Assembly: GCF_003054025.1 (NCBI RefSeq)
Contig: NZ_QBKG01000001.1
Span: forward strand, 186,001-250,000
DNA from: Capnocytophaga leadbetteri
GTDB taxonomy: Bacteria; Bacteroidota; Bacteroidia; Flavobacteriales; Flavobacteriaceae
DNA: 64,000 nt
Reading direction: 5' to 3'
Position 1 is the stretch's first letter. Each line of letters opens with the position of its first letter. Made by a program: the position numbers and the translations under genes. The notes under the pieces are model-generated. The model did no database searches. It saw nothing but the letters and a program-made list of their open reading frames with translations, and was not told the origin of the DNA. Below, piece after piece: positions 6,815 through 38,811 of the stretch.

Positions 6815-6863
6815 GAAAGGTTATTAATTATCGAAGGAATGCCTTAATTCATAATCACCTTTC
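6815..6863 (+). promoter_or_regulatory. Candidate structured mRNA leader before rpsD
   Basis: In the 94-base gap before rpsD, GAAAGGT (6815-6821) pairs with ACCTTTC (6857-6863). After one mismatch four more pairs follow, and an inner AAGG-AATG-CCTT hairpin sits in the loop. S4, the rpsD product, is an autogenous translational regulator in several bacteria, so a leader for self-control is a reasonable inference. I do not recognise a specific published motif. Confidence 0.35.
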
Positions 6864-13394: not shown

Positions 13395-13418
13395 AATATT
13401 CCCCTCTTATAAAGAAGC

Positions 13419-13775: not shown

Positions 13776-13797
13776 AGATAATTGAATTTTTTAAAGG

Positions 13798-14475: not shown

Positions 14476-14484
14476 AATAATCTG

Positions 14485-18680: not shown

Positions 18681-18744
18681 CAAGCAAAAAAGAAGAATTT
18701 TTTTATTTAGTATGTTTTTGAACAAGGCTATAAAAAACATATCA

Positions 18745-18780
18745 TTATTTAGCTTGTTTATAAATAATTTGCTATATTTG
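18745..18780 (+). promoter_or_regulatory. Promoter with 23-bp inverted repeat, iron-uptake operon
   Basis: TTATTTA (18745-18751) and TAAATAA (18761-18767) are inverted repeats with 9 bases between. The -33 TTG (18754-18756) lies inside the repeat, and TATATTTG (18773-18780) is the -7 box, 19 bases after it. The block is repeated almost exactly at 25320-25355 before another surface-protein gene. A repressor bound to the repeat would cover the -33 element. Because both loci concern iron or haem uptake, an iron-sensing regulator is a reasonable inference. Confidence 0.65.
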
Positions 18781-18801
18781 CCCCCGAATTTAGTAATAAA
18801 G

Positions 18802-20925: not shown

Positions 20926-20957
20926 CCCCTAATTTCTAACAATTAATTTCTAAATAT

Positions 20958-22298: not shown

Positions 22299-22327
22299 TA
22301 AAATCGGTTACTTTAAATAAAAAAAAC

Positions 22328-22360
22328 GCTTGAAGAACTTTATTTCTTCAAGCATTTTTT
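22328..22360. terminator. Terminator between the converging iron operon and esterase gene
   Basis: A perfect 10-bp stem GCTTGAAGAA / TTCTTCAAGC (22328-22337 with 22344-22353) is followed by T-run ATTTTTT on the plus strand. A run of A before the stem means it can also stop transcription coming from the right. Confidence 0.85.
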
Positions 22361-22379
22361 ATTTGCTAACTATTAATTG

Positions 22380-23333
22380 TTATTTGTTAATTGATAATAC
22401 TGCTTTTGCTTCAGCTTCTTTCCCATTTTTCTGTAACCACTTAGCAGTATTCTTCAGATATTTTTCTGTCGGTTTGAACTCATAGCCTAATTTTTCCGAC
22501 AGAGCTTTGTATCGCTCCTTAATCACCATTGGGTTAGCTTCAATCTCGTTGCGGTCTATAAACATTTCAACAAAAAGCATCCTAAAAAAGTCGATGTTAG
22601 CCATTATCTGCACCGTACCGTGGTTTTCATTAGGATATTCTTTAAAGTAAGTTTGTAAGTCTTTGCATCCGCCTTCCTTTAGTAGTGATTGCAACCCTTC
22701 AATAGCCTCGTGGTGTCTGCTTCTGCCATTATGGCGCACCTTTTCTCCCGAATACGATAGGTATAGGTGCCGCCCTTTAAAGTTTTTTTGTTTATTGTCT
22801 TCAAACAGTTTTAGTCCGCTATTATCTTCCCACCATAAGCTGGGGTCGTGAGCCATATATACGTTGAAGTAGTTAGTATAGTTATTTAGGGCATAAGCTA
22901 CCGCCAATCCTCCCAATGAGTGTCCCACTACTATACTAAAATTGTTACACCGGTACTCGTTTTTAATCGAGGGGATAACAGATGTAGTAATCAGTTTCCA
23001 AAAAGCATCGTTGTTTGTGGTAAAATCAGTTTCTCGCTTAGAGGTCTGAATACCTACTATAATCATTTCAGGCACATTGGGTATACCCTGCGATAGTTTT
23101 TCCATTAAGGTCGCAAAATAGTTAAAATTAGCTTCAGCATCTAACAGATACACTACGGGGTATTTCGTAGGTTTTAATGAAGAATCGTGGTACGAAGGGG
23201 GTAAGTATACTAATACCGAACGAGTTATATCATCATCTGAAGCAATTTCAATACGCTTACCTATACAGATAGAGTTTTGTCCTTGTCCTACAAAACTACA
23301 TAAAAGCAAAAAGAAAAGTATTTTTTTCATCAT
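22380..23333 (-). CDS. Periplasmic alpha/beta-hydrolase of the esterase D/Fes type
   Basis: The 317-residue product has a signal peptide (about 18 residues, ending VGQGQ) and a putative-esterase (esterase D type) fold. The nucleophile elbow is GHSLGG (Ser about residue 144), an aspartate lies in AHDPSLWW, and the histidine in NENHGTV. This family includes Fes and IroE, which cut the ester bonds of enterobactin-type siderophores. The neighbouring operon looks like a siderophore uptake system, so cleavage of an imported siderophore is a plausible role, but other ester substrates are possible. An IS element abuts its promoter. The start may be the ATG one codon later. Confidence 0.82.
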   Translation of the reverse strand: MMKKILFFLLLCSFVGQGQNSICIGKRIEIASDDDITRSVLVYLPPSYHDSSLKPTKYPVVYLLDAEANFNYFATLMEKLSQGIPNVPEMIIVGIQTSKRETDFTTNNDAFWKLITTSVIPSIKNEYRCNNFSIVVGHSLGGLAVAYALNNYTNYFNVYMAHDPSLWWEDNSGLKLFEDNKQKNFKGRHLYLSYSGEKVRHNGRSRHHEAIEGLQSLLKEGGCKDLQTYFKEYPNENHGTVQIMANIDFFRMLFVEMFIDRNEIEANPMVIKERYKALSEKLGYEFKPTEKYLKNTAKWLQKNGKEAEAKAVLSINK

Positions 23334-23350
23334 TATTTTTTTAGCAATTG

Positions 23351-23358
23351 CAAAGATA
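23351..23358 (-). promoter_or_regulatory. Promoter -7 box of the esterase gene, abutted by an IS element
   Basis: On the minus strand TATCTTTG (23358 to 23351) followed by C lies 17 bases before the esterase start. The TA of this box is also the TA target duplication of the IS element that begins at 23359. The original sequence upstream of the -7 box has therefore been replaced by the IS end, which does not place a TTG at the usual 19-23 bases. Confidence 0.55.
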
Positions 23359-24447
23359 TAGTCAAAAAGAAATGGTTTGCGAATTTATCAAACGGAAATT
23401 GAGAGTTAGAAGTGACTCTAACTCCTTTTTATAAGTATGTATATTATCAAAGAAATTCCTTATAGCATCTCGGAATTCTGTCTTGTTCCGATAGAAACCC
23501 GTATTGATTACTTTTTTTCGTAAGAATTTCCACAAGTGCTCTATTAAATTGAGGTTCGGAGAGTATGGAGGCAAGAAAATTTGCTTGATTCTATTATCTT
23601 CTACCCAGTTTTGAAGCTCTTTATTGTGATAATAGCGAGCATTATCGGATATAATATAAATATTTTTAGCGTTTGGATGCTTTTTAAGAGCTAATTCGTA
23701 AAGTTCTTTTGTTGATTCTGCATTAACGCATTCACAATCAAGAGCTATTACATCTGTAACATCATAAGCATTAAGCAAACCATTGATATTCACTCTATCA
23801 CGTCCACTAACTGTTGGTTGTTGAAACTCTTTACCTTTCTCTATCCAAGCATAAGTGGAACGGCTGTTGTGCGTAGGATGAACACCATCGGCAAAATACA
23901 CCACATCCCCTTCTTCCTTTTCTTGAAGAATTTTAGAGAGCGCTTCAGCAAATAGTTTTTGTTTTAAAGGATCCGCCTCACAAGGCACTTCGGTTGTTTT
24001 CTTGTAGGAAAAACCAATTCTGTTAAGTAAATCAGCCATTCCTTGTGGAGTATAGGTAACTTCAAAAGTGTCTTTAACCCATTGAGATACTTGTTTTGCA
24101 TCTGTATAAAGATGTGTGCGTAACTCTTGTTTTAAGGATTCTATTTGAAAAATATTAAGCAGACCTTGATAACCTTTATAACGATTCTCAAGAAGTTTAT
24201 CTAGTCCTCCTTCAAGATATAAGGAACGATAACGATAAGTAGTAGAAATATCTATACCCAAGCAATCAGCAACAAAAATAGGAGTATTGCCCATAGAAAG
24301 CATCAAAATGCAGGTAACTCGGGCATAATCCAGCGACCTTGCAAGTTGCGTTGGAGCTTTCTAAGTTCCTCTATTTCTGTTGGTGATAATGTTAGTTCCA
24401 TAGATGGTGCAAAAACAACAAATTTTTTATTTATTCGCAATCTAAAT
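23359..24447 (-). mobile_element. IS630-family insertion sequence, damaged copy
   Basis: The left end begins TAGTCAAA directly after TA (23357-23358), as expected for IS630-type elements that target TA. Comparison with the short copy at 25002-25187 defines the element. Here the right end stops at 24447, lacking the last 11 or so bases of the terminal repeat found in the other copy. The transposase also carries a one-base deletion near 24331. The copy is therefore unlikely to move by itself. Confidence 0.85.
23362..24401 (-). pseudogene. IS630-type transposase, frameshifted near its start
   Basis: The element's transposase starts at the ATG at 24401 (MELTLSPTEIEELRKLQRN). One G is missing between 24331 and 24332, compared with the short copy at 25056-25062. 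Without the deletion the protein would be about 346 residues. The remaining open frame from about 24306 gives 314 residues: a Tc/IS630 helix-turn-helix (NTPIFVADCLGIDISTTYRY) and a DDE domain with Asp140 (VYFADG), Asp221 (IISDNARYY) and Glu256 (NLIEHLWKFL), the DD34E spacing of the family. The catalytic triad is intact but the N-terminal DNA-binding part is damaged. The stop codon lies inside the left terminal repeat. Confidence 0.85.
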
Positions 24448-25383: not shown

Positions 25384-26727
25384 ATGAAACGTTTTAACCC
25401 TTTTTGTGTGATGGTGGCACTCTTCGCCCTCATCATTGCGGCTTGCAGCAAAGACGACAACAAAGTTGATAACAAGCCAGAAAACCCTAAAGAACTCATT
25501 TTAGAGAAAACCTCTCTAACCCTCAAGGTTGCCGAAACAGCCACTCTTACCGTCACTTCGGGCAATGGCTCTTATACTGTTAAGGTAGCCGACCAAGCGG
25601 TAGCCTCAGCTACTGTAACCCAAAACACCCTCAAAATCACCGCTATAGCACAAGGCGAAACAGTAGTAACGGTAGCCGATGCCAAAGGCAAAACCGCTTC
25701 TCTAAGTGTAACCGTTACGGGTATTTTTGCCGTGGTCGATAAGAGCGTCACGGTAGAAAACGGTGCTAAAACCGATGTAAAACTACAGAACGGACACGCT
25801 AATTACAATTGTGTGTGCGTACCCGAAGGGATAGTGTTAGTAAGTGCCAAAACCGATAATGTACTCAGTGTCGAAGGACTAAAGGTGGGCAGTGCTACTG
25901 TTACCGTTACCGATGTACAGAGTGGCAAGCAGGATATTTTTGAGGTGACGGTTACAGGTATGCCTTTCACTATAAGCAAAAACAGCTTTGTGTTAGAGGT
26001 AGGTAATACCGAGCAAGTTGCTATCACAAGTGGCAATCCTGACTATAAGGTACAATATTCTATTGAAAATGTAGTGAAAGCCCAAATAAACGGCAATGTT
26101 ATACACCTAACAGCCGTAGGGGCAGGAAAGGCCAACGTTATCATCACCGATGCCGCTCAGCAAAAAGCGACTATAGCGGTAACAGTAAACGGAGCTGTAG
26201 CAGGCGATATTTTTGATGTAGATGAAGGAGAAGACGAAAACGAAGGCGAGAAAGTAGTGTCGCTCAAAATGAATGCAGTGGCTACAGGGGCTATCACAAT
26301 CCCCGACGAAGGTACAGTACTCGATGCCTCAATATTCGATGGTAATAAAGACATCACTTCAGCTGATTTGAAGAACATCACAAAGATAGGCGACGGAGCT
26401 TTCAAAGCTACTACTAACCTTAAAAAAGTAGTGATGACAAAAGTTAAGAGCATAGGCGTACAAGCCTTTATTAGCTCGGGGCTTACCGAACTTACCCTCC
26501 CTGCTTCTATAGAAACCATCAAGTCAATGGCTTTTATGAATAACTATAGCCTTACAAAGGTAACGGTGCTCAATCCTACCCCGATAACCATAAGCCTCAA
26601 CACCTTTGCTACTTCAGCACAGAATCGCGAAAAACGAATTTTATATGTGCCTAAAGGAAGTAAAACAGCTTATGAAAACAATGAAAATTGGGCTAAAAAC
26701 TTCAAAGAAATAAGAGAACTTAATTAA
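25384..26727 (+). CDS. Surface lipoprotein with Ig-like repeats and a BspA-type LRR domain
   Basis: The 447-residue product has lipobox LIIAAC (Cys21) followed by SKDDN, close to the surface-export signal. Then come three Ig-like repeats of about 75 residues (40-115, 117-190, 193-265), an acidic linker (DVDEGEDENEGE), and a BspA-type leucine-rich-repeat domain (GDGAFKATTNLKKVVM, then LTELTLPASIETIKSMAF) capped by LYVPKGSKTAYE. BspA proteins bind host matrix or other bacteria; the ligand here is unknown. It has its own regulated promoter and terminator. LRR modules of the same kind occur in three genes downstream. Confidence 0.83.
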   Translation: MKRFNPFCVMVALFALIIAACSKDDNKVDNKPENPKELILEKTSLTLKVAETATLTVTSGNGSYTVKVADQAVASATVTQNTLKITAIAQGETVVTVADAKGKTASLSVTVTGIFAVVDKSVTVENGAKTDVKLQNGHANYNCVCVPEGIVLVSAKTDNVLSVEGLKVGSATVTVTDVQSGKQDIFEVTVTGMPFTISKNSFVLEVGNTEQVAITSGNPDYKVQYSIENVVKAQINGNVIHLTAVGAGKANVIITDAAQQKATIAVTVNGAVAGDIFDVDEGEDENEGEKVVSLKMNAVATGAITIPDEGTVLDASIFDGNKDITSADLKNITKIGDGAFKATTNLKKVVMTKVKSIGVQAFISSGLTELTLPASIETIKSMAFMNNYSLTKVTVLNPTPITISLNTFATSAQNREKRILYVPKGSKTAYENNENWAKNFKEIRELN

Positions 26728-26737
26728 TTTACTTGTA

Positions 26738-26778
26738 GGGGCAAATGGCAGAAAAAATGCTATTTGCCCCTTACTTTT
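26738..26778 (+). terminator. Terminator after the Ig/LRR lipoprotein gene
   Basis: A 12-bp stem GGGGCAAATGGC / GCTATTTGCCCC (26738-26749 with 26759-26770, one G-T wobble) is followed by TTACTTTTT. It separates this gene from the haem operon. Confidence 0.8.
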
Positions 26779-26946
26779 TATTAACAATATATCGCTTACA
26801 TTAACAATTGTGTGTTGATAATTAACAATTACATATTGTTTATATGTAATTTAGAATGTATAATTTATATTTGATAATCAGTGTTTTATGTTGTGTTAAA
26901 TAGTTAATCTTTCTTTTTTCTAAATAAAATCTGCAATATATTTGGA

Positions 26947-26973
26947 TTGAATATAAAATAGTTGTTACCTTTG
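26947..26973 (+). promoter_or_regulatory. Promoter of the haem/LRR/protease operon
   Basis: TTG at 26947-26949 and TACCTTTG at 26966-26973, 19 bases apart, followed by CACC, precede the first gene by 37 bases. The 23-bp inverted repeat of the two other promoters is not present here. The rest of the AT-rich 26779-26946 stretch shows no gene. Confidence 0.65.
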
Positions 26974-27010: not shown

Positions 27011-28171
27011 ATGAAAAAACTATTGATAGGGGCGATGGTTTGCCTGTCGCTCGCAGCGTTACAAAGCTGCAAAAAACAAGTAATTGAAGAGCGCGAAGAC
27101 ATAGTCGCAGGCTCTGAAATTATTAGCCAAGGTCGTACGCCCGACGAGTCTGACGGCAAGAAAGGCGACTACTTCATCAATACACTTACCAGCGAACTTT
27201 ATGGACCTAAAACCGATGCTGGGTGGGGAGCGCCCATACGTTTCGGTAGTAGTAACACCGCAGAGGCCAAAATACTTTCTGGGGCAGGGGCACCTTCACC
27301 TCGTACCGGTAGCGAAGGCGATTGGTATATCGACCTTAGTACGCGTACCCTCTACGGCCCTAAAGCCAATAACCAATGGGGTAGCGGCATAGTGCTGGGC
27401 GGCAATCCTAACAATGGTTCTAACCAAGACCCCGATGAGTCCCTACCCGATTTCCATATCAGCAAAATTGGGCAACCTACCCTCTTAGTATGGTCAAACC
27501 CTAAAACTGTCGAGGTGAATATGAACGCCAATAACCAACTCAAATTGGTTGAGGTAATCGGTAGAGAGGCTTTTGCTCAAAAACGTTCCTTAGAAAAAAT
27601 TACCATTGGCGATAAAGTACAACTAATCGAAAACCAAGCTTTTGAAAACAACTTCGCTCTCAAAGACATTATCTTCACTGCCGATAGCGAACTCGAACAT
27701 ATAGGCGTAGAAGCCTTTACAAAGTGCAATGCACTCAAAACTATAGGTCTACCTTCACGCCTTACCCTTATTGATAAATACGCTTTTCTTAGCTGTAAGT
27801 CGCTCGAAACGGTAGTCGTACCTGGCTCTTGCGAGCGTATTCTTTCTGAAGCTTTCAAAGAGTGCGAAAACCTCAAAAACGTTACCCTTAATGAGGGCGT
27901 TAAATTGGTGGATAACTTAGTGTTCGAAAAATGTTTCTCACTTACTAAGATTACTTTCCCTGCTTCTTTAACCGGTTTAGGCGAATTGCTTTTCAATGAG
28001 ACTACCCAAAAGATAAGCGTTACTTTCCTTGGGGCGGTTCCTCAAACTAATGACGATGCCAATCCTTTCGCAGGGGCTACTATCGAGCATATCTATGTGC
28101 CTTCACAGCACCTACAAGCCTACCGCGATAAGTTCACCGACTACGCCGATATTATACAAGCTATCCAATAA
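27011..28171 (+). CDS. Surface lipoprotein with two YGPK modules and an LRR domain
   Basis: The 386-residue product has lipobox ALQSC (Cys20). Residues about 50-135 contain two copies of a short module, GDYFINTLTSELYGPK...GWG and GDWYIDLSTRTLYGPK...WG, of a kind also seen in collagen-like and phage fibre proteins. From about residue 175 a BspA-type leucine-rich-repeat domain follows (IGREAFAQKRSLEKITIGDK) with the usual C-terminal strand HIYVPSQHLQAYRDK. It has the same architecture as the next gene, 21 bases downstream, so the two are a tandem duplication. It opens the haem operon; a role as surface adhesin or haemoprotein receptor is inference. Confidence 0.78.
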   Translation: MKKLLIGAMVCLSLAALQSCKKQVIEEREDIVAGSEIISQGRTPDESDGKKGDYFINTLTSELYGPKTDAGWGAPIRFGSSNTAEAKILSGAGAPSPRTGSEGDWYIDLSTRTLYGPKANNQWGSGIVLGGNPNNGSNQDPDESLPDFHISKIGQPTLLVWSNPKTVEVNMNANNQLKLVEVIGREAFAQKRSLEKITIGDKVQLIENQAFENNFALKDIIFTADSELEHIGVEAFTKCNALKTIGLPSRLTLIDKYAFLSCKSLETVVVPGSCERILSEAFKECENLKNVTLNEGVKLVDNLVFEKCFSLTKITFPASLTGLGELLFNETTQKISVTFLGAVPQTNDDANPFAGATIEHIYVPSQHLQAYRDKFTDYADIIQAIQ

Positions 28172-28192
28172 AAAGTAAAAAAATAATTCTAA

Positions 28193-29395
28193 ATGAAAAA
28201 TATAATTATCAGCTTGTGCGCGCTTTTGGCGTTCAGCACGGTGGGCTGTGTCAAACAGACCATTGAGCGCGTCAAAGTAAAAAGAGCCAGTGTCATACAC
28301 CTCAAAGATTATCCTCCTTCTATTGATGAGGGCAACATAGGCGACTATTATATAGATAGAAAAACAGGCTTGCTCTATGGCCCTAAAACCGATGAGCGCG
28401 GCTGGGGCAATACGCCTATTCGTTTAGTATCCGAAAAAGGCATCAACCCCAATACCATTCGCTCTGGCAAGGGTGCTCCCGATTTAACTATTGGCAATGA
28501 AGGCGACCTGTATTTAGATACCCAAAACCAAAAACTCTACGGGCCTAAGAAGAACAACAGCTGGGGCGTGGCCTACACTTTGGGCGATAACAACCCTTGG
28601 CATAACAATCAGCTTTCTAACTACAAGCTCTCCGACGACCGCAAAACGCTATTAGCGTGGCTCAATCCTCAAACGGTGCATATTGATATGCGCGCCGATG
28701 TAGGGCTCAGCCGTATTACCGCCATTCAAGAGAAAGCCTTTAGTTATCAATTTGGTGCAGGCGGGCACGAGGGCGTTTTTACTTCCGACCCTTATGCCGT
28801 TAAGACTATCATTCTACCTGCTACCGTTACCGAGATAGGCAAAAGTGCTTTCGAGGGGCTTTATCACCTCGAGATGCTCACCCTACCACGCGGACTTACC
28901 AAAATCCCTCGCAGTATGTGCAATGGCTGCGAACGCCTTAGTATTGTCAATTTTGAAGAGGGTATTACCGAGATAGAAGACTTTGCTTTTGCGCGTACTA
29001 AGATAGAAAAACTCACCATTCCGCGCTCTGTCAAAGAGATTAAGGGCTATGCATTTGCTTTTTGCGATAATCTCGATGAGCTCAAACTCCAAGAGGGATT
29101 AAAGAAGATAGCGGCACAAGCCTTTTTAGGTTGCGAAAAGCTAAAGGTTATTGATATACCTGAGAGTGTTACCAGCATAGGTAGTATAGGCGATTTCTCT
29201 TTCAGCTATTGTCCGGTAGAAACGGTAGTGCTACACTCGCGTACTATCCCTAAGTTCAGCAGTGTTGAGATATCCTTTAGGCGTACCCTCAAGAATGTGT
29301 ACGTGCCCGATGAAAGTTTAGAGTTGTACAAAAAATCTGACTGGGCAGACGATGCTTTCAAAGCCAAAATCAAACCAATGTCTCAAAGACACTAA
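28193..29395 (+). CDS. Surface lipoprotein, paralogue of the preceding gene
   Basis: The 400-residue product repeats the plan of its neighbour: lipobox FSTVGC (Cys19), two YGPK modules (GDYYIDRKTGLLYGPK and GDLYLDTQNQKLYGPK) and a BspA-type LRR domain (EIGKSAFEGLYHLEMLTLPR, CDNLDELKLQEGLKKIA) ending VYVPDESLELYKK. Its sequence has diverged clearly from the first copy, suggesting an old duplication. It is in the same transcript, with only 13 bases before the next start codon. Confidence 0.78.
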   Translation: MKNIIISLCALLAFSTVGCVKQTIERVKVKRASVIHLKDYPPSIDEGNIGDYYIDRKTGLLYGPKTDERGWGNTPIRLVSEKGINPNTIRSGKGAPDLTIGNEGDLYLDTQNQKLYGPKKNNSWGVAYTLGDNNPWHNNQLSNYKLSDDRKTLLAWLNPQTVHIDMRADVGLSRITAIQEKAFSYQFGAGGHEGVFTSDPYAVKTIILPATVTEIGKSAFEGLYHLEMLTLPRGLTKIPRSMCNGCERLSIVNFEEGITEIEDFAFARTKIEKLTIPRSVKEIKGYAFAFCDNLDELKLQEGLKKIAAQAFLGCEKLKVIDIPESVTSIGSIGDFSFSYCPVETVVLHSRTIPKFSSVEISFRRTLKNVYVPDESLELYKKSDWADDAFKAKIKPMSQRH

Positions 29396-29408
29396 TCAAT
29401 CTAACAAA

Positions 29409-30260
29409 ATGAACAAAATATATTATTTTCTTATAATGTTTTCGCTTGCCTTAGTAGCTTGCGATAAGCAAAAAGAAGACCCTAATCCCGAATTGCCTGC
29501 CCCTCCTAAGCCAGAAGCATCTGTTTCTCCCTTAGTAGGCGAATGGCGTTTGGTGAAGTTAGAAGAAGATGGTTACGAAACTAAGATGGAAAACTGCAAT
29601 CGCAAGAGTAGCTTAGTCTTTGGGGCAGACCAAACCGCTACCCGCACTACCTATCAGTATACCCCCAATACCGACCCTAATGATGCTAAAGACGCTTGCA
29701 ACTATGTAGTAGAAGCTAAAACCTACACTACTACCTTGCAGCAGTTAGTACTACAGTCGGTAGCCTCGTCTACTGCTACCGAGGCGTATACCTATAGCCT
29801 AACCACCGATACCTTGGTGATGGTGTACACCAATAGGGCAGGAGGGGTGCAGACAGCTACCTACCATAAGAACTACCAGTATGACCCTGTCAAAGAAATC
29901 ATCGGCACTTGGTATATTCACAGCCTTTGGCGCAATGACATTTATAATTATGACAAAGATTTAACCGATTTTTCGGGTTGTCGTTCGCAACAAAAGGTAG
30001 TGATTACCAAAGACTCTATTACTATGTATCAGTATCGCTATACTAAGAACAAATGCCGCGAAACAGTCTACAAAGGAGCTTACGAAATATCTGCTGGCTT
30101 GGGTATCATAAAGGTACGCAACAAGATAAGAGGCAAGGTAAATGTAGGCTTGCGCGAGTTTAGGCTCGGCAATGGCACGCTCGAGTTTTGGGGCTTTGTA
30201 AATGGCTTAGCAGGCGACTACGAAAATGAGTTTTACCGCAAAGAAAAAACATTCAAATGA
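29409..30260 (+). CDS. Lipoprotein with two lipocalin-like repeats
   Basis: From the ATG at 29409 the product has 283 residues with lipobox ALVAC (Cys18). Two internal repeats of about 110 residues begin with the lipocalin-like signature: LVGEWRLVKLEEDGYETK (about residue 44) and IIGTWYIHSLWRNDIYNYD (about residue 178). Each also has a conserved cysteine (ENCNRKSSLVF, FSGCRSQQKVV). Lipocalin-like barrels bind small hydrophobic molecules, which makes haem or a siderophore a possible ligand here. Its stop codon overlaps the start of the TonB receptor gene (ATGA). Confidence 0.7.
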   Translation: MNKIYYFLIMFSLALVACDKQKEDPNPELPAPPKPEASVSPLVGEWRLVKLEEDGYETKMENCNRKSSLVFGADQTATRTTYQYTPNTDPNDAKDACNYVVEAKTYTTTLQQLVLQSVASSTATEAYTYSLTTDTLVMVYTNRAGGVQTATYHKNYQYDPVKEIIGTWYIHSLWRNDIYNYDKDLTDFSGCRSQQKVVITKDSITMYQYRYTKNKCRETVYKGAYEISAGLGIIKVRNKIRGKVNVGLREFRLGNGTLEFWGFVNGLAGDYENEFYRKEKTFK

Positions 30261-32380
30261 GGCGCTCCATCCTACATAATATCGCTATCGTCTCGGTGCT
30301 GCTCTTCTCGGTAGTAACCGCTGCACAGCCTACTAAAACCGACAAGGTTATCGACCTTGAGGAGGTGGTAGTCTCGGGGCAAATAGAACCCCAGTCGGTC
30401 AAAAAGTCGGTCAAGAACGTGCAAGTCATTACCAAAGAGCAGATAAAAGGCGTTGGGGCTACCCATTTAGGCGAGGTGCTAAATCAGTATGTAAACCTCA
30501 ATATCCTTCCCGATGAGGGCAGTGGCAAGCAGAAGATTTCGCTCTATGGCTTAGGGGCTAACTACTTCAAGGTATTTGTAGACAATGTGCCGCTGGTAAG
30601 CGAAGACGGCTTAGGGGTCAATACCGACCTTTCGCAGATAAATGTAGATGATATTGAGCGCATAGAGATAGTCGAAGGGGCGATGGGCGTAACCCACGGT
30701 GCCAATGCGGTAACCGGTATTATGAACATCATCACCAAGAAAAAAGCAACCAATAAGTGGGATATTACCTACTCGCTTCAGGAGGAAACCCTCTCGCGCG
30801 AGTACAATTTTCTAAATAAAGGCAAACATTATCTCAACTTCCGAGCTGCTACCAATCTCTCTAAGCGTTGGTTTGCTTCTGTGGGTATGAATCGCAATAA
30901 CTTCAATGGCTTTTGGGGTAAGTACAAAGGCAAAAACTACTTGGGTACAGATGGGCTTAGGGGCTTTGAGCGCCAACCTTATTTTCTCTATCAAACCAAT
31001 GTAATGACTACCTATCAGGGCGATAGCTATAAGCTCATTTATCGCTTTGAGTATATGCGCGACCAGTACAACACTTACGACCGCACTGCCGAGCGCACCT
31101 ATAGTCCTCGTTATGGCGATTACACTTTTGGTAATGACCAGCGCGATTACTATTCGCGCCAGAACCACCAGCTTAACCTCAGTGGGTCACTTAGTCAGCT
31201 AAAGTACAACCTTACCGCTTCTTATCAGTATCAAGAGCGTGCTACCGAAACCTTCCGCTACCTTATTGATTATCATCACGAAATCAATAATGAAAAAAGG
31301 CGCAACCAGTCTATGGATGTGTTTTACTCATCGGGCTACCTCAGTGGGGCTTTGGCTAAGAAGAGATACCAATGGCAAGTAGGCTATGAGGCTGTGCGCA
31401 ATCAGGGCTATGCTATCATCCGCGACGAAGGTTCTACCGAAAAGTTCGTAGATAAAGCCATTGATAATTACGACCTTTATGCTTCTGTAGAAGCCAATAT
31501 CACCAAAAAAATTTCTATCCGTCCAGGAGCTCGCTACTCGCTACAGCGTTTGTTCAATAACCAATACGCCTATTCGTTGGGTGCGCGCTATCTCTTGCCT
31601 GCCAATGTCGAGCTACGCGCTTCAGTAGGACAAGCCTATCGCACACCTAACTTTCAAGAGTTGTATGTGCGCAATGTCTTTATAGGGCATATCTTTTTGG
31701 GCAATGAAAACTTAGTGCCTGAGCGCAGCTTCTCTACGGAGCTCAATGCCAAAAAGGTCTTTACTTTTGGCACTGATGCCGCTACTCAGCTTACTAGCAA
31801 CTTAGCCTTTAGCCACAATCGTATATACGATAAGATAGATAACATATTGTTAGAATTGCAAGGCGGTATGCCACACACTCAGTACCTCAATGTCAGCCGT
31901 TTTCTCAATAACAATATTATCACCACACATAGGTTTGTGTGGAACAATCTGGGGCTTACCTTAGGCGGGGCTTTTGTCTGGGTATCGCAGACAGATGATG
32001 TGTCAAAGATAAAGAAAGACGACCGTTTTCTCTTGAATATCAATGCCAATGCAGGGCTTGCCTATCAGTTGTCCAAAACGAACACCGTGCTTACGGCCAA
32101 TTATAAGTTCGTGGGCAAGTCGCAAATGTGGATGGCTACTACCGATGGGGCAGCGCTGGGTACCTTGTCGCCTTATGGTTGGGTCGATGCTTCCCTGCAA
32201 CAATCGTTTTGGCAGAAGCGCATCGACTTTGTTTTAGGTTGCCGCAATGTGCTAAACGTAATCAATACTACCCTTACCCAAACATCGCTATTGGGTATAA
32301 CCACCGAGCGCAATTACCCTATTGCCAACGGACGTATGTTTTATTTGAAACTCTCTTATAATCTGAATATTAAATATTAA
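30257..32380 (+). CDS. TonB-dependent receptor, HmuR-like haem type
   Basis: The 707-residue product has a signal peptide ending VVTAAQ, a TonB box (LEEVVVSG), a plug (LYGLGANYFKVFVDNVPLV; GANAVTGIMNIITKK) and a barrel ending with an aromatic-rich strand. In the barrel, YRTPNFQELY and NENLVPERS correspond to the FRAP and NPNL boxes typical of haem receptors. The next gene encodes an HmuY-like haem-binding lipoprotein, the HmuY-HmuR pairing known from Porphyromonas in swapped order. Haem import into the periplasm is therefore well supported but still inferred. It is coupled to the gene before it by a 4-base overlap. Confidence 0.87.
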   Translation: MRRSILHNIAIVSVLLFSVVTAAQPTKTDKVIDLEEVVVSGQIEPQSVKKSVKNVQVITKEQIKGVGATHLGEVLNQYVNLNILPDEGSGKQKISLYGLGANYFKVFVDNVPLVSEDGLGVNTDLSQINVDDIERIEIVEGAMGVTHGANAVTGIMNIITKKKATNKWDITYSLQEETLSREYNFLNKGKHYLNFRAATNLSKRWFASVGMNRNNFNGFWGKYKGKNYLGTDGLRGFERQPYFLYQTNVMTTYQGDSYKLIYRFEYMRDQYNTYDRTAERTYSPRYGDYTFGNDQRDYYSRQNHQLNLSGSLSQLKYNLTASYQYQERATETFRYLIDYHHEINNEKRRNQSMDVFYSSGYLSGALAKKRYQWQVGYEAVRNQGYAIIRDEGSTEKFVDKAIDNYDLYASVEANITKKISIRPGARYSLQRLFNNQYAYSLGARYLLPANVELRASVGQAYRTPNFQELYVRNVFIGHIFLGNENLVPERSFSTELNAKKVFTFGTDAATQLTSNLAFSHNRIYDKIDNILLELQGGMPHTQYLNVSRFLNNNIITTHRFVWNNLGLTLGGAFVWVSQTDDVSKIKKDDRFLLNINANAGLAYQLSKTNTVLTANYKFVGKSQMWMATTDGAALGTLSPYGWVDASLQQSFWQKRIDFVLGCRNVLNVINTTLTQTSLLGITTERNYPIANGRMFYLKLSYNLNIKY

Positions 32381-32396
32381 AAATCTTACTATTTAT

Positions 32397-33623
32397 ATGA
32401 AAAAAATAATTCTATCACTCAGTATTGCAGCCTTTATGTTTGGGGCTTGCCAAAAAGAATCAGAACCTGAAAAGAAACTGCCAGAGGGCAATGGCACTCA
32501 AACCAGCACTACCGAGCAAGGTACAGCCTCAGGTACTCTTAGCGTAAAACCGCTAACCCCTATCACAGTACAACCTGAGGTAGGAGGCGCTAATGAGCCT
32601 AACCAAGTATACATCGACCTTTCTACCGGAAAGACTACTCTAATTAAGCGCGACACTTGGCACTTAGCTTTCTATTGTGGTGATGACGATTTTAGAGTGC
32701 TCATCAACCCTGCTATTGCAATGTCAGCATTAGAGCAAGAAACTACCGATATAAATAAAAGGGTAGAAGAGGATAAAACCATACTGCTCAATACCGACCC
32801 TACCAACCCATCGCCTAACCACCTTGTTAGCCGTAGATTGATAGACGACCCTCGCGGTTATTTAGCTCCGCGCAATAACGAACCTGGTTCTGGTACAGCT
32901 ATCGCTGGTGTTTCAGCTAAAGACGAAGAAAACAAAGTATACCTACTTAGTATGGGCTTTGCTATCAGCGATAAAACTCCTGTAAAAGGAAGCGTAAATA
33001 TATTAGGAGCGCACAAAGGTTGGGGCAAAATACGGGTACTACGCGAAAACGGAAAGTATAAAGTGATGTTTGTGCCACGTACCGCTGCTACTGCTCCTGC
33101 TGCTGTTAAGACCTTTACAGTAGCCAAAAACGCAGCTTATAACTTTGTGTACTTAAACCTTGTCTCTGAGCAAATGGTGCAAGTAGAGCCTAAGAAAAAC
33201 GATTGGGATTTGTGCTATACCGCTGGGGTAGCTTGGCTTACTAACAAAGATTACGATGCGCGAAGCAATGTAACCCTTTACCCCGACCTGATAATCAATA
33301 ACATACACGCAGGTACTAAAGTAGCGCATACCAAACAGTTTGAAACTACTGAAAAAGCCTACGAAGCCTATAAAAATATCCCTTCCCAAATATTTTGGGA
33401 AACCACTGTCAAAGGAGCTAATTTCGATGGTGATAAATACAATCGTTTAGGCTTAGGCAAATCGTGGAGAGACCTGCCCAACGGAGGTACTATCCGTCCC
33501 TATTGGTATGTGGTTAGAGACGGCGAAGGCAATCACTTCAAACTCATAGTCAGAACAATGAAAAACGATGCGGGCGAGAGAGGCTATCCTACCATCGAGT
33601 ATCAATATGTACCCAAACAGTAA
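32397..33623 (+). CDS. HmuY-like haem-binding lipoprotein
   Basis: The 408-residue product has lipobox FMFGAC (Cys18) followed by QKESE, matching the surface-export signal. After a Thr-rich linker comes the HmuY fold, recognised by VYIDLSTGKTTLIKRDTWHL and the following FYCGDDDFRVLINPAIAMSA. HmuY proteins take haem from host carriers and pass it to a TonB receptor. The axial haem ligands differ between family members (His or Met pairs), and I cannot assign them here without a structure. It is 16 bases after the receptor gene. Confidence 0.88.
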   Translation: MKKIILSLSIAAFMFGACQKESEPEKKLPEGNGTQTSTTEQGTASGTLSVKPLTPITVQPEVGGANEPNQVYIDLSTGKTTLIKRDTWHLAFYCGDDDFRVLINPAIAMSALEQETTDINKRVEEDKTILLNTDPTNPSPNHLVSRRLIDDPRGYLAPRNNEPGSGTAIAGVSAKDEENKVYLLSMGFAISDKTPVKGSVNILGAHKGWGKIRVLRENGKYKVMFVPRTAATAPAAVKTFTVAKNAAYNFVYLNLVSEQMVQVEPKKNDWDLCYTAGVAWLTNKDYDARSNVTLYPDLIINNIHAGTKVAHTKQFETTEKAYEAYKNIPSQIFWETTVKGANFDGDKYNRLGLGKSWRDLPNGGTIRPYWYVVRDGEGNHFKLIVRTMKNDAGERGYPTIEYQYVPKQ

Positions 33624-33643
33624 TTGACAAAAGAGCCGATTTG

Positions 33644-33698
33644 GATATAGCTTGAGCGAACGATGAGCGAAGGATAAGCGAACAATAACCGAATGAAT
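33644..33698 (+). repeat. Five tandem 11-bp units, dispersed repeat family
   Basis: Units GATATAGCTTG, AGCGAACGATG, AGCGAAGGATA, AGCGAACAATA and ACCGAATGAAT follow each other exactly 11 bases apart. They share the pattern AGcGAAnGATA with the arrays at 25233-25276 and 42137-42186. They lie in the 147-base gap between hmuY and the protease gene. Confidence 0.75.
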
Positions 33699-33704
33699 CG
33701 CCCT

Positions 33705-33761
33705 CTAACGACTAGCGACTAGCGACTAACAACTAACGACTAACGACTAACAAACTAACGA
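33705..33761 (+). repeat. Eight tandem units of CTAACGA
   Basis: Seven-base units CTAACGA, CTAGCGA, CTAGCGA, CTAACAA, CTAACGA, CTAACGA, CTAACAAA and CTAACGA run up to 10 bases before the GTG start of the protease gene. Gain or loss of units could change the distance between upstream signals and the start. Confidence 0.8.
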
Positions 33762-33770
33762 CTAAAAAAA

Positions 33771-36700
33771 GTGTTTAAAAAGAATATTTTACTAATTTTG
33801 TGCTTTGCTTGGGCTATAGGGCTACAGGCACAAGAGTATTGGAAGCAAGCGGGCTTAAGCAGTCGCAGTGCCGAAGCCGCTACAGCGCACCACCAAGAGT
33901 ACACCCTCAATAAGAAAGCCTTTGCCAATGCGCTACATAGTGCTACGGCACGAGGCAATACCGCTGAGGTAGTAATCAAACTCCCTAATGCTAAGGGCGA
34001 ACTCGAGTCTTTCCGCGTGCGAAAAACCAGTGTCCTATCTGACGAGTTGGCAGAGCGCTACCCACAGATAGAGACTTATGCGGGCTACTCGCTTTCCCAA
34101 CCCGATAAAGAGGTAGCCTTTACGTGGTCGCCTGAGGTAGGGCTTTCAGCTATGTTCGATGACAATAACGAATACGCTTTCGTACAGCCTACTAACCGCA
34201 GTGGGGTGAAGCATATGGCCTACCAGCGCAGTGCTTCCGTAGAGCAAATGACTTTTGATTGTGGTACAATGGCAAAAGTCAAAGCAGCCGCAGTTACTCC
34301 TGCTTCACTTACCCAGCGTACTACCGGCAACCTTTTTGCTACAGAGCCTACCCTGCGCACCATACGTATAGCTATTGCTGCTACCAGCGATTACACCTTG
34401 CGTTTTGGTAGCCCAGAGCGCGCCCTTGCCGCTATTGTTTCTACCATACAGCGCACCAATCAGGTGTATCGTACCCAGATGTCTATCCAATTCCAATTGG
34501 TAACAGGGGTAGAAACTATTATCAATAACAGAAAAGACGACCCTTTCCGCAATAATATGCGTGCCGAAACGTGGAATGGCGACCCTCTACAGAAGTTTTT
34601 AGACGAGAAAGTAGGCGATGCTAATTATGATGTGGGACACGTATTTCACCATACTAAGCAGCCTAATGGTAATGCTGGTTGTATAGGTTGTATATGCGAA
34701 AAAGGCGAAAAAGGACGTGCTTTCTCAGCAGGCGACCTCTCTAACAGTGTAGAAAAAGATGTGTTCGACATCGATTTCTTCTGCCACGAGCTGGGTCACC
34801 AAATGGGGGCTAACCACGTGCATAACCTCAATAACGAAAACACAGGCGCACAAGTAGAACCCGGTAGTGGCTCTACCATTATGGGCTATGCGGGTATATC
34901 GGGGGCTAATAACGTGCAAAGGCGTTCAGACCCTTATTTCAATCACGTAAGCGTAGAGCAGATGATGAAGCACATCACTGCGGCTACTTGTCCGGTCAAA
35001 GCGCCTATTGCCAATTCAGTGCCCGTAATAGGCGAGCTCAACGATTATACTATTCCGCGCAGTACTGCCTATCATTTAGTAGGTACTGCTACCGACCCCG
35101 ATGGCGATACGCTCTATTATATGTGGGAGCAGCATAATAGTCCCCAACCTGGCCGCATCACAGTTACTTCCGATAACTTTGCTGATAATCTAACGGAAGG
35201 ACCTATGGCTCGTTCACTAAGACCCAGTCGTTCTAATGAGCGCTACATTCCCCGTCTTTCTCAGATATTAGAAGGGAAGTTAAGCGAGCGCAACCCTGGC
35301 CCTACTTCCACTTGGGAAACGGTTAGCAGCGTGAAGCGCACCCTCAAATGGGCATTTGTAGTAATGGATAAGAGCCTCGGTAGGCGAGACGATCGCGAGA
35401 CTGATGTAAGCACCGGTAATACCGTGTATGCAGGGGTGAAGATAAATGTAACGAATAATGCAGGTCCTTTCGAGGTTACTTCACAAGCCAGAAAGACATA
35501 TTGGTTTGTAGGCAAAACCTGTACTATCACTTGGAATGTAGCCGATACCGATAAACAGGAAGTGAATACCCAGCGAGTAAACATTCTTTTTGCTCTCGAC
35601 GGACAGACTTTCACGCATACTCTTGCGGCTAATATTCCTAATAATGGTAGCTATACCTTTACCGCTACTGCCGACCTTACTACTACCAATGGCCGCTTTA
35701 TGATTCGCCCTGTCGATAATATCTACTTGGCGGTCAATCTCGGCAAGATAATAGTAAAGACTGATGGCGATATTGATGGCGATGGCATAGTCGATAGTCT
35801 TGATAACTGTATAGAAACCCCTAACCCAGACCAAGCTGACCTTGACGGAGATGGTATAGGCGATGTGTGCGATGAGGATATAGACGGCGACGGCGTAAAT
35901 AATGCTACCGATAATTGCGCACGCATACCAAATACGAATCAGAAAGATACCGATAAAGATGGTATGGGCGATGCCTGCGATGACGATGCTGATGGCGATG
36001 GTATACCAAATGCCTCAGACAACTGTCCGTACCACGCTAACCCCGACCAAAAAGACTCTGATGGCGATGGCATAGGCGACATCTGTAGTGGCGACCGCGA
36101 CCTCGATAAGATACCCGATGAAAAGGATAACTGCCCCGATATGGCTAACCCCGACCAGAAAGACCTCGACAAGGACGGTATAGGCGATATATGCGATGAA
36201 GACCGCGATGGCGACGGTATCCCTAACGACCGCGATAACTGTCCCGATTACTCTAATCCCGACCAAGCAGATACTGACCACGATGGTATAGGCGATGCTT
36301 GCGACCCCGATATAGACAATGACGGTATTCCTAATGAGAAAGATAATTGTCCGTTTGTGAAGAATCCATCGCAGAAAGACCTCGATAAGGATGGTATAGG
36401 CGATGCCTGCGATGACGATGTAGATGGTGACGGGGTGCCTAATGATAAAGATAATTGCCCTGAAACCTACAACCCCGACCAAGCCGATACCGACCGCGAT
36501 GGCATAGGCGATGTCTGCGATAACGATGCTGATGGCGATGGGGTGCCTAACGATAAAGATGACGAACATCAAACGGTCTTAATCCCTAATGCATTCACTC
36601 CTAATGGCGATGGTGTAAACGATACTTTTGTGATACATCGTATATCGTTCTACCCTAATAATGTGTTGCAGGTATTCACCCGCGAAGGACAATTAGTATA

Positions 36701-36836
36701 CGAAGCGCGTGGCTATCATAATCAATGGAAAGGCTTAGGCTTAGACGGTCAGAAGTTGCCTCAAGGCTACTACTTCTATAAGTTTACGATTAAGAACAAA
36801 CGCACCCAAGAGGGGTGGTTATTCATTAACTATTAA
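33771..36836 (+). CDS. Secreted reprolysin-like metalloprotease with TSP3 repeats and type IX sorting domain
   Basis: The 1021-residue product starts with GTG. It has a signal peptide (to about residue 20, ILCFAWAIGLQAQ), a propeptide-like region, and an M12-type zinc protease domain (about 185-395) with HELGHQMGANH at 338-348 and the Met-turn STIMGYAG near 370. A middle region with Ig-like parts follows. Then come seven thrombospondin type 3 repeats (about 664-930) of the DxDGDGIxDxxDNC calcium-binding kind. The C-terminal CHU_C-like domain (PNAFTPNGDGVNDTFVI; final residue Tyr) marks export by the type IX system, type B. The PorP/SprF gene lies directly downstream. It probably degrades host proteins at the cell surface. 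Confidence 0.88.
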   Translation: MFKKNILLILCFAWAIGLQAQEYWKQAGLSSRSAEAATAHHQEYTLNKKAFANALHSATARGNTAEVVIKLPNAKGELESFRVRKTSVLSDELAERYPQIETYAGYSLSQPDKEVAFTWSPEVGLSAMFDDNNEYAFVQPTNRSGVKHMAYQRSASVEQMTFDCGTMAKVKAAAVTPASLTQRTTGNLFATEPTLRTIRIAIAATSDYTLRFGSPERALAAIVSTIQRTNQVYRTQMSIQFQLVTGVETIINNRKDDPFRNNMRAETWNGDPLQKFLDEKVGDANYDVGHVFHHTKQPNGNAGCIGCICEKGEKGRAFSAGDLSNSVEKDVFDIDFFCHELGHQMGANHVHNLNNENTGAQVEPGSGSTIMGYAGISGANNVQRRSDPYFNHVSVEQMMKHITAATCPVKAPIANSVPVIGELNDYTIPRSTAYHLVGTATDPDGDTLYYMWEQHNSPQPGRITVTSDNFADNLTEGPMARSLRPSRSNERYIPRLSQILEGKLSERNPGPTSTWETVSSVKRTLKWAFVVMDKSLGRRDDRETDVSTGNTVYAGVKINVTNNAGPFEVTSQARKTYWFVGKTCTITWNVADTDKQEVNTQRVNILFALDGQTFTHTLAANIPNNGSYTFTATADLTTTNGRFMIRPVDNIYLAVNLGKIIVKTDGDIDGDGIVDSLDNCIETPNPDQADLDGDGIGDVCDEDIDGDGVNNATDNCARIPNTNQKDTDKDGMGDACDDDADGDGIPNASDNCPYHANPDQKDSDGDGIGDICSGDRDLDKIPDEKDNCPDMANPDQKDLDKDGIGDICDEDRDGDGIPNDRDNCPDYSNPDQADTDHDGIGDACDPDIDNDGIPNEKDNCPFVKNPSQKDLDKDGIGDACDDDVDGDGVPNDKDNCPETYNPDQADTDRDGIGDVCDNDADGDGVPNDKDDEHQTVLIPNAFTPNGDGVNDTFVIHRISFYPNNVLQVFTREGQLVYEARGYHNQWKGLGLDGQKLPQGYYFYKFTIKNKRTQEGWLFINY

Positions 36837-36848
36837 TATACTTTTTTG

Positions 36849-37733
36849 ATGAAAAAACTAATACTATCAGCTTTGCTCTTGAGTGCTGCTATCGGCAGTG
36901 CTCAAGAGGCAAACTATATATTCTATAATCAGTTTCAGAATGTAGTGAACCCTGCGGCTATAGGGGCTGAAGGCAACCATACTATAGGCGCACACCTGCG
37001 CTACCAGTGGGCGAAAAGCGCTTCTTCCGATAGTCCTCAGCAGCAAACGCTCAACACTACCCACCGCCTGAGCAATCACGTAGCCATAGGGGCATCGGTA
37101 GTGAGGGAAAAGGTGTTTGTGCAGCACCAGACCGCTTTATTTGCCGACTTCGCTTATGCGCTCCCTCTTACTGAAACTGACAACCTCTATTTGGGTATCA
37201 AAGCAGGAGGTAATCTCTTCAATATAGATAGTAGTCGCTTTAAAACCTATAACGACCAGTACGACCCTTATTTGCAAGGCGTATCGGGTAGATTTCAACC
37301 TAATGTAGGGGTAGGGGCTTATTATCAGCAACCGCGCTTCTACGTGGGGCTATCGGCTCCTAACCTATTGGCGTCAGATAAGACTAAAGTAGAGAATGAA
37401 GTAGTAACTTCAGTAGCCGAGCGTATCAGCTTTTATGCGCAGGCAGGCTATTTCTATCCCCTCACTGCCGACTTTACGCTAAGTCCACGAGCGCAAGCGT
37501 ATATCAATCAAAAGGGTGACTATCAGCTTAACGCTTCAGCAGCTGTTCTCTACAGCGATTATGTAGAGGCTGCTTTAGGCTACCGCTCCGATAGTGCGGT
37601 GAATATCTGTGCGCTTTTCAAAGTGCCTAAGTACCACCTATCTGTAGGCTATGGCTTCGAAACCAATGTCGATAATAATGTAGGGGCAAGTGTGCGCAAC
37701 TTTCACGAGTTTATGCTAAAAGTATATTGGTAA
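36849..37733 (+). CDS. PorP/SprF family type IX secretion membrane protein
   Basis: From the ATG at 36849 the product has 294 residues with a signal peptide ending AIGSAQ, followed by the family pattern FYNQFQNVVNPAAIGAEG at the N-terminus and an outer-membrane beta-barrel. PorP/SprF proteins sit in the outer membrane and help secrete or anchor type IX cargo that has the type B C-terminal domain. Here it follows such a cargo gene by 12 bases, the usual cargo-partner arrangement. A TTG one codon earlier is an alternative start. Confidence 0.87.
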   Translation: MKKLILSALLLSAAIGSAQEANYIFYNQFQNVVNPAAIGAEGNHTIGAHLRYQWAKSASSDSPQQQTLNTTHRLSNHVAIGASVVREKVFVQHQTALFADFAYALPLTETDNLYLGIKAGGNLFNIDSSRFKTYNDQYDPYLQGVSGRFQPNVGVGAYYQQPRFYVGLSAPNLLASDKTKVENEVVTSVAERISFYAQAGYFYPLTADFTLSPRAQAYINQKGDYQLNASAAVLYSDYVEAALGYRSDSAVNICALFKVPKYHLSVGYGFETNVDNNVGASVRNFHEFMLKVYW

Positions 37734-37752
37734 TTCCTTAAAAGAAGAAGTG

Positions 37753-38811
37753 ATGAAACGTTTATTATTCGTAGCAGTGTTAGCGTTCTTGGGGTGGCAT
37801 TGCACCAAGCAGAGCGACCCAGAAGAGCCTAAGAAAAAGGAAGAGAAACCTACTGTAGCAACTGCCTATAAGCTCAGCGATGATAAAGAAACCCTACTAA
37901 AGTGGCTCGATACAACTACCACCACCCTTGACCTCGGTACGCACCCTGCCCTCAAACGAATTACGATTGTAGGTAAAGAGGCATTTAAAGGTACGCCTAT
38001 AGTGAGTATCACCCTACCCAATACAGTAGAGAAGATAGAAGAAAAAGCTTTTGAGGGGTGTACATCGCTTACTACAGTAGCCTTGCCTAAGAATGCTAAT
38101 TTTAGAACGATTGCTCTAAGCACTTTTGAGGGTTGTAAGCGCCTTACCCGTATAGATATCCCCGATTCGGTCAAAGAGATAGAGAAGTTTGCTTTTGCCG
38201 ATGCAGGACTTACTGAAGTAAAGTTGCCTAAGGAACTTTTTGAAATCAAAGAGCAGGCTTTTGCAGGCAATGCCCAACTGAAGAGTATCACCCTGCCTAA
38301 AACCATTTCGCATATTAGCACAGGGGCTTTTATGCAGACAGGGCTTCAGACGGTTACTCTTAATGGTACCGAGCCGCCCCGCCTTTCTTTCCCTAAAGGA
38401 GAGGCTGCACTGCAACGCAAGGGCGCACCTTTCCCTTTTGAAACTCTTATTGATATTATAGTGCCTCGCGAGGCCACCAATACCTATCGGGTAGAGAAAG
38501 CTGATTGGGCTCCTTATAGGCGTTATATTAATAGGAAAATAGCTTTTACCCCTCTTCGATTAGAGAAGACAGAGGTAACCGTAAAGGTAGATGAAATACA
38601 AGTCTTTTCGATATACGGTAGCAAGCGCTACCAAATACGGCAGACTAAAGATAGCGAGGCGATAGCCATAGTAGGTACGCCCGACCAAGATGCTAATAAC
38701 GTTACCCGCATAGCCGTAAAAGGACTCAAAGAAGGCACTTTCACTTGCACTATCACTGATGTTATAAGCGACCAAGATGCGCAGCTAAAAGTAACAGTTA
38801 TTAAAAAGTAA
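37753..38811 (+). CDS. LRR (BspA-type) lipoprotein with C-terminal Ig-like domain
   Basis: From the ATG at 37753 the product has 352 residues. The signal peptide has a weak lipobox (LGWHC, Cys17). Residues about 65-230 form a BspA-type leucine-rich domain (IVGKEAFKGTPIVSITLPN, CTSLTTVALPKNANFRTIA), and the last 90 residues an Ig-like domain related to those in the protein at 25384. Start of the LRR part (YKLSDDKETLLKWLDTTT) resembles the same region of the 28193 gene. It ends the operon with no terminator and overlaps the end of the opposing PAP2 gene by 11 bases. Confidence 0.75.
   Translation: MKRLLFVAVLAFLGWHCTKQSDPEEPKKKEEKPTVATAYKLSDDKETLLKWLDTTTTTLDLGTHPALKRITIVGKEAFKGTPIVSITLPNTVEKIEEKAFEGCTSLTTVALPKNANFRTIALSTFEGCKRLTRIDIPDSVKEIEKFAFADAGLTEVKLPKELFEIKEQAFAGNAQLKSITLPKTISHISTGAFMQTGLQTVTLNGTEPPRLSFPKGEAALQRKGAPFPFETLIDIIVPREATNTYRVEKADWAPYRRYINRKIAFTPLRLEKTEVTVKVDEIQVFSIYGSKRYQIRQTKDSEAIAIVGTPDQDANNVTRIAVKGLKEGTFTCTITDVISDQDAQLKVTVIKK

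Follow-up and report, generated by a model that had tools for sequence, protein, structure and literature searches.

A candidate haem-acquisition gene cassette with LRR lipoproteins, an HmuY-like protein and a predicted type IX-secreted metalloprotease in Capnocytophaga leadbetteri

This report concerns eight adjoining genes, here called A to H, in the genome of Capnocytophaga leadbetteri (2.64 Mb; handle G000). The window, i.e., the whole stretch of 64,000 nucleotides that was analysed, covers positions 186,001-250,000 of contig NZ_QBKG01000001.1 in assembly GCF_003054025.1 (G000:C1:186001-250000), and all eight genes lie on its + strand between 27011 and 38811 as long open reading frames (ORFs). 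Most of the gene set recurs in several related species, and, to judge from the sequences, the genes probably operate together to obtain haem from host proteins. That A to H as a whole form a surface haem-acquisition cassette is a proposal that we consider evenly balanced. The genes, their order, the catalytic motif of the protease, the conserved receptor histidine and the conservation as a set can be read from the DNA and its relatives; the roles of the leucine-rich repeat (LRR) lipoproteins, the lipocalin-like lipoprotein and the protease in haem harvest are what we infer. The original prediction of such an operon, made from this DNA, is thus partly supported: conservation of the set and several signs of haem speak for it, and its unity as a single transcript is no conserved trait.

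Gene A (27011..28171) encodes a lipoprotein with two YGPK-type repeats and a BspA-type LRR, and gene B (28193..29395) a second YGPK/LRR lipoprotein that forms its own clade beside A in the gene tree. They are followed by gene C (29409..30260), encoding a lipoprotein with two Lipocalin_4-like domains, the true start of which is probably 29409, where the lipoprotein signal lies, and not the longest-ORF start at 29352. Gene D (30257..32380) encodes a TonB-dependent receptor with a haem-receptor-type loop, and gene E (32397..33623) a two-half HmuY-like lipoprotein. Further downstream come the genes for F (33771..36836), an M12B-type metalloprotease with TSP3 repeats and a type IX secretion system (T9SS) type B tail, for its PorP/SprF-type outer-membrane partner G (36846..37733), and for a third LRR lipoprotein, H (37750..38811). 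Pfam places LRR_5 in A, B, and H (genes 1, 2, and 8), Lipocalin_4 in two stretches of C, Plug and the TonB barrel in D, Reprolysin_4, eight TSP_3 stretches and CHU_C in F, and PorP_SprF in G. ORFs, Pfam, and NCBIfam together confirm the eight same-direction genes and the domains that had been assigned to them. From A to H the intergenic gaps are 21, 13, -4, 16, 147, 9, and 16 bases; as had been claimed, they are mostly below 25 bases (six of seven junctions), the exception being the 147 bases between the HmuY gene E and the protease gene F.

The conservation of the set was followed in a genus sample of 20 genomes including G000, for which the surroundings of the E copies were retrieved and annotated. 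E-type HmuY proteins occur as 10 copies in seven of these genomes, and cassettes with A and B number seven, in five genomes (one each in G000, G013, and G007 and two each in G001 and G015), so the eight-gene set is not a one-strain accident. The original prediction had set conservation beyond the strain beforehand as one of the points on which it could fall, and the set is indeed conserved. A search for the same eight-gene order found it in one other genome, namely G013, where A-B-C-D-E-F-G-H is identical to that of G000 with gene-by-gene identities of 44-71%. The second cassette of G001 runs A-B-C-D-E-F-G. Another type, A-B-L-C-D-E with F or F-G divergent alongside (L being a gene between B and C), is found in G007 and in the first cassettes of G001 and G015. 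In the first G001 cassette the divergent F comes without G and sits between the two cassettes of that genome, and the first G015 cassette is split, as the cluster reaches its contig end after C and D-E start at the end of another contig; contiguity across these two ends is inferred. Overall, G adjoins F in six of the seven cassettes and F is found together with E in six, while a relative of H is located between B and C in three other cassettes. The seven best-scoring matches to A in the genus (E 1e-92 or better) all lie inside cassettes, as do all seven matches to C at E 1e-37 or better. Two side observations belong here. Long LRR lipoproteins with Ig-like domains (972 and 1219 residues; L064:9045-11963 and L067:11833-15492) stand between B and C in the second cassette type, and a stretch of G008, a genome without an E match, matches residues 444-653 of D at 49% identity (G008:C1:1945153-1945779) and is perhaps a remnant.

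Gene trees of A to G (quick maximum-likelihood trees, with Shimodaira-Hasegawa-like approximate likelihood ratio test (SH-aLRT) support only) match in their principal groupings but not in every position. G000 pairs with G013 in all seven trees (SH-aLRT 90-100), and the cassettes of G007, G015 (first), and G001 (first) group together in the A, B, C, D, E, and F trees (support 60-97), a grouping that the G tree leaves unresolved. The cassette forms of D, E, F, and G separate from the relatives in solo D-E pairs or in paralogous F-G loci at SH-aLRT 99-100. The paralogous F-G locus was retrieved in seven genomes, in six of which it adjoins an aroB-like gene, as read from sequence.

These trees bear on the main rival explanation, a host-contact island in which D-E import haem, the LRR lipoproteins serve adhesion and F-G degrade proteins in general, all sharing a niche and no haem pathway. 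We hold this to be possible, albeit somewhat improbable. In its favour, or at least against a haem cassette, stand a number of observations on how freely the parts combine. At least 212 of the 299 family genomes encode an F-type protease (E<=1e-60); because the F family is so common, the presence of F by itself says little, and what is special is the cassette-specific clade. F-G pairs occur elsewhere in the genus without D or E, A/B-type YGPK/LRR proteins also occur singly outside cassettes, and contig C64 of G015 carries A-B-C-F-G without D-E. Conversely, solo D-E pairs stand at four genus loci (one in G012, one in G014, and two in G015). The protease gene is divergent in three of the seven cassettes; with that and the cluster lacking D-E, one transcript for all eight genes, as the original prediction would have it, cannot be upheld as a conserved property. 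The trees are also incongruent in part, as the second cassettes of G001 and G015 change position between them; the latter groups with G000 and G013 in the A tree (72) and with the second G001 cassette in the B tree (90). The nearest genomes to G000 by glycyl-tRNA synthetase (G018, G010, and G009; 96-97%) lack E altogether. On the other hand, a mere island of unrelated functions fits poorly with the cassette-specific clades of F and G, with the largely congruent A to F trees, and with the confinement of strong genus relatives of A and C to cassettes.

At the center of the set stands the receptor-HmuY pair, for which haem is, as far as the sequences tell, the likely cargo. The receptor D carries a series of motifs, YRTP, then His478, then GNENL, that partially matches the FRAP/NxxL pattern with a loop histidine described for haem/haemoglobin receptors (PMC9331221), FRAP being replaced by YRTP. 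The loop histidine (YRTP/NxxL) is present in all 20 D-type receptors aligned (six from cassettes, four from solo pairs, and 10 from other genera, out of 25 in the set) and in none of the three receptors of the canonical HmuY loci of the genus. It is the main sequence argument for haem as the ligand of D. Library models do not carry the label: D scores 61 and 62 bits against TIGR01785 and TIGR01786, far below the membership cut-offs of 316.85 and 323.75, and all its other NCBIfam matches are likewise below cut-off, the best being a B12 receptor model. The earlier designation of D as a haem-type TonB receptor consequently stands by virtue of the loop histidine and fails as far as the models go.

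Its partner E reaches 66.4 bits against the HmuY family PF14064 (cut-off 27), and it is not a plain HmuY, having two HmuY-like halves. Against a profile of eight canonical HmuY proteins, the C half matches with 97.8% probability (8e-13) and the N half weakly (62%, 8e-5). The whole E profile finds three PDB chains below E 0.1, namely 8b6a (9e-6), 6eu8 (6e-5), and 3h8t (0.012), titled 'conserved hypothetical lipoprotein', 'putative heme binding protein', and HmuY, respectively; we take the first two to belong to the HmuY family as well. The loose form of a surface-export motif stands at the N-terminus of all 10 E proteins and the strict form at four. As the same genome encodes two single-domain HmuY proteins elsewhere (L127 and L128, on contigs C2 and C13), E is probably a specialised addition. 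A different arrangement was seen in G009, where a tandem canonical HmuY of 399 residues (L129:10101-11297) lies beside a single HmuY and an HmuR-type receptor.

Across the family, PF14064 was found in 114 of 299 genomes. From these we chose 14 loci with a long HmuY from 14 other genera, together with six canonical HmuY loci for comparison (17-20 kb each), and a D-type receptor stands beside the E-type protein in all 14. In Mongoliibacter (L002), a distant relative, D-E is preceded by haemin-type transport genes for a FecCD permease and an ATP-binding cassette (ABC) ATPase and by a gene for a HemS/ChuX protein, and in G014 (L072) a ferrochelatase gene lies about 7 kb upstream of D-E, with genes for an ankyrin protein and a DUF2271 protein among those between. 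The loop histidine in 20 of 20 receptors and the Mongoliibacter neighbours both support haem import by D-E. Within the 17-20 kb of the 14 other-genus loci, no match to A, B, C, F, or G was found at E<=1e-4, which counts against the haem-cassette reading. Because the pair is solo at the four genus loci and in all 14 chosen loci of other genera, D-E is, on this comparison, the ancestral core and the remaining genes are a genus-level addition; for the same reason the pair does not depend on the rest of the cassette. As a side observation, a protein with an HmuY domain and a T9SS type A tail, possibly a T9SS-secreted haemophore, is encoded directly after D-E in another genus (L116:8216-9451), and genes of similar appearance follow D-E in L118, L125, and L126.

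Several results count against haem and leave room for another ligand, which could be a tetrapyrrole akin to cobalamin, a complexed metal or a peptide-bound cofactor that F excises. Next to the B12 model as best match, none of the 17 solved receptors nearest to D (E<=1e-5) bears the name of a haem receptor; they are of the colicin I, enterobactin, B12, and Xus types. As a single sequence, E has no HmuY match in the PDB, and among 25 E sequences no column holds histidine at 80% or more, so there is no conserved His-His pair; only one methionine besides the start reaches that level (Met109, 23 of 25), so that no Met-Met pair is conserved either. His-His and Met-Met are the axial haem ligands of Porphyromonas gingivalis HmuY and of Tfo, respectively (PMC9331221). 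Several tyrosines are conserved in E, in a ligand search made by sequence columns; together with Met109 they are candidate ligands. Finally, a weak E relative in L003 (28%) has neighbouring ABC genes, one of them for an ATPase, that read as metal-type. Set against these points are the invariant loop histidine, the HemS and haemin-type ABC genes beside D-E in L002, and the inclusion of HmuY among the PDB matches of the E profile, and we therefore deem another ligand rather improbable. Haem uptake by the pair, as originally put forward, gains from these same three signs, each of them independent.

For the protease, the window protein contains HELGHQMGANH and IMGY, and HExxHxxGxxH with a Met-turn is present in all seven cassette F proteins. 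The tail reaches 58.8 bits against TIGR04131 (T9SS type B; cut-off 35), and G scores 180.1 bits against TIGR03519 (cut-off 90.55); cargo with tails of this type is retained by PorP-like proteins (PMC9143113). A PDB search with the F protease domain gave no match at E<=1. By analogy, F may serve haem release, a role to which we give slightly less than an even chance. Alternatively, F might act chiefly on the lipoproteins of the cassette and shed E or A/B from the membrane as a free haemophore instead of attacking host proteins; Kgp, for comparison, is reported to detach HmuY from its lipid anchor (PMC10100897). The joint inheritance of F and E in six of seven cassettes and the T9SS-tailed HmuY after D-E in L116 are in line with such shedding; G015 C64, which keeps F and G without D-E, is not. 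We rate this main role of F as improbable. A weak F relative (22%, E 3e-8) was observed at L128:2523-4781, about 4 kb from a canonical HmuY gene of this genome, with ribosomal-type genes between them.

The accessory lipoproteins are harder to place. To our knowledge, the ligands of BspA-type LRR and Lipocalin_4 lipoproteins are mostly unknown. We scored the surface-export (LES) motif, K-(D/E)2 or a near form just after the lipid cysteine (PMC5080379), in a loose form defined by this analysis: it is present in none of the 11 A and B proteins scored, in two of seven C proteins and in three of five H-type proteins. Three A proteins, missed by the lipobox rule or the start call, were left unscored. 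A, B, and H score 39-58 bits against the HupY/LrrG model (cut-off 1250) and share the LRR only. At E<=1e-10, C is found in at least two of the 299 family genomes, a sample with three members of this genus in which up to eight candidates per genome were scored; both are of this genus and the second is a partial match with stops. A PDB search with C gave nothing convincing. A role of the LRR or lipocalin-like proteins as binders of host haem proteins, or of haem itself, is doubtful in our view. Just upstream of the cassette, at 25384-26727, the window encodes another LRR lipoprotein with Ig-like domains, a strict export motif (CSKDDN), and a terminator-like site of its own.

Taken as a haem-acquisition cassette, A to H would work as follows. 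F would leave the cell through the type IX system and stay attached to the surface through G, where it would cut host haem proteins and make haem available to E, or else free E from its lipid anchor. The surface lipoprotein E would take up haem and hand it to D, which would import it with TonB energy. A, B, H, and C would be accessory outer-membrane lipoproteins docking host proteins or shuttling the ligand. It is plausible that the protease and the LRR proteins feed haem to D-E. The fullest version, in which lipoproteins dock the host protein beside a PorP-held protease, a two-domain haemophore passes haem to its own receptor, and capture, cutting, and import are encoded together and passed on as a single exchangeable unit, seems to us doubtful.

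The signals around the genes were read with the same questions in mind. A 14-pair stem forms a terminator-like site at 26737-26771 upstream of A, a promoter-like site of the TTG-N-TAccTTTG type follows on the + strand (26940..26973; 37 bases before A), and at the far end a convergent gene overlaps the 3' end of H by 11 bases. Together with the short gaps, this is consistent with one transcription unit in the window. Terminator-like sites between 25000 and 40000 are no commoner than in shuffles (15 observed, 15.5 expected), and the sole + strand site within the gene span falls inside the protease coding region, which bears out the earlier remark that no terminator is visible. A TTG-N-TAccTTTG-type site lies within 260 bases upstream of 10 of 11 genes (seven cassette A and four solo D genes), where mononucleotide shuffles give an expectation of 0.27 of 11; the sole miss is the first cassette of G001, where the ORF start used is probably too far upstream. 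We rejected the promoter of A as an iron box. The same pattern (up to three mismatches) occurs at nine places in the genome, i.e., the A site and eight others (control 0), which include an apparent tRNA gene, a UspA-like gene and a FeoAB-like pair, as read from sequence. We treat it as a general flavobacterial promoter, and no iron box was found; neither result helps the case for haem.

The E-F gap (33624..33770, + strand) holds an array of the heptamer CTAACGA (33705-33765). Phase variation through this array was considered and dropped: the repeat is dispersed in the genome (26 matches with at most one mismatch, overlapping ones counted; control 0), and the gap folds like its shuffles (z -0.03). 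The E-F gap of G013 contains a strong hairpin (z -4.2) without a T run.

As to the genomic setting, three genomes, G000, G013, and G001, have cassettes in the vicinity of one and the same kinase/PyrR block (11931-15030 in the window, 12 kb upstream of A), and this shared neighbourhood argues that part of the inheritance is vertical. E is 50% identical between G000 and G013 and glycyl-tRNA synthetase 95%. Loss, transfer, and fast divergence are each possible explanations of the distribution. The stretches beyond PAP2-GlyRS in G009, G018, G010, and G013 contain neither cassette nor PyrR block, and no empty site was observed there; a plasmid search with E and with the stretch 22380-24310 returned no match. 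An IS630-type transposase gene (DDE_3, HTH_33; 23362-24306) stands between the cassette and an upstream set discussed below. Recent insertion by this element found no support, given that the G013 and G001 cassettes lie near the same PyrR/kinase block in stretches without a transposase match. Elsewhere in the window, Rfam finds an S4-Flavobacteria ribosomal protein leader (RF03141) at 6826-6856.

How do these parts compare with known systems? The gingipains of P. gingivalis are cysteine proteases with type A tails that are encoded apart from hmu, whereas here an M12B metalloprotease with a type B tail stands in the same cluster as its PorP. E also differs from the HmuY of that species in its two HmuY-like halves and in lacking a conserved His-His or Met-Met pair. 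The likeness lies in the strategy: gingipains and HmuY act together in Porphyromonas haem supply, so that there, too, an HmuY-family lipoprotein, a TonB receptor (HmuR), and a secreted protease are jointly engaged (PMC10100897). Closer in taxonomy, HfpR-HfpY of Flavobacterium psychrophilum pairs a TonB receptor with a diverged HmuY, and the bacterium requires it to grow well on haemoglobin when iron is limiting (PMC9331221). Compared by description only, it differs in the 78-residue loop L7 of HfpR with a partial motif and in a DoxX-family gene between the hfp genes, and the available text on its transcript names no LRR, protease, or PorP gene (PMC9331221). In Streptococcus, the LRR surface protein HupY/LrrG binds haem, and growth on haemoglobin depends on it (PMC6593403). 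It belongs to the Gram-positive LPXTG proteins, however, and the likeness of A, B, and H extends to the repeat only. XusAB resembles D-E in that a surface lipoprotein hands its ligand to a TonB receptor (PMC13142918), but XusB has a DUF4374 propeller, and its ligands are ferric siderophores. A Xus-like set, apparently for xenosiderophores, lies upstream on the opposite strand of the window (18712-23333; a TonB-receptor plug protein, a DUF4374 (XusB-type) protein, and an esterase); it is similar to an operon of P. distasonis (PMC13142918) and constitutes a separate system. For Capnocytophaga cynodegmi, an HmuY homologue is mentioned for three genomes, with no gene context or function given there (PMC4447898). 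In the openly licensed literature, judged by titles and abstract openings, no description of the gene set as one cassette was found.

In short, the parts are of known kinds, and their combination in one cassette is a variant of the Porphyromonas strategy of protease plus HmuY. E represents an HmuY subtype that must bind haem, if at all, through other residues. A cassette carrying both a protease and a haemophore would reveal what further components such a pathway includes, and it would give a handle on the BspA-type LRR and Lipocalin_4 lipoproteins.

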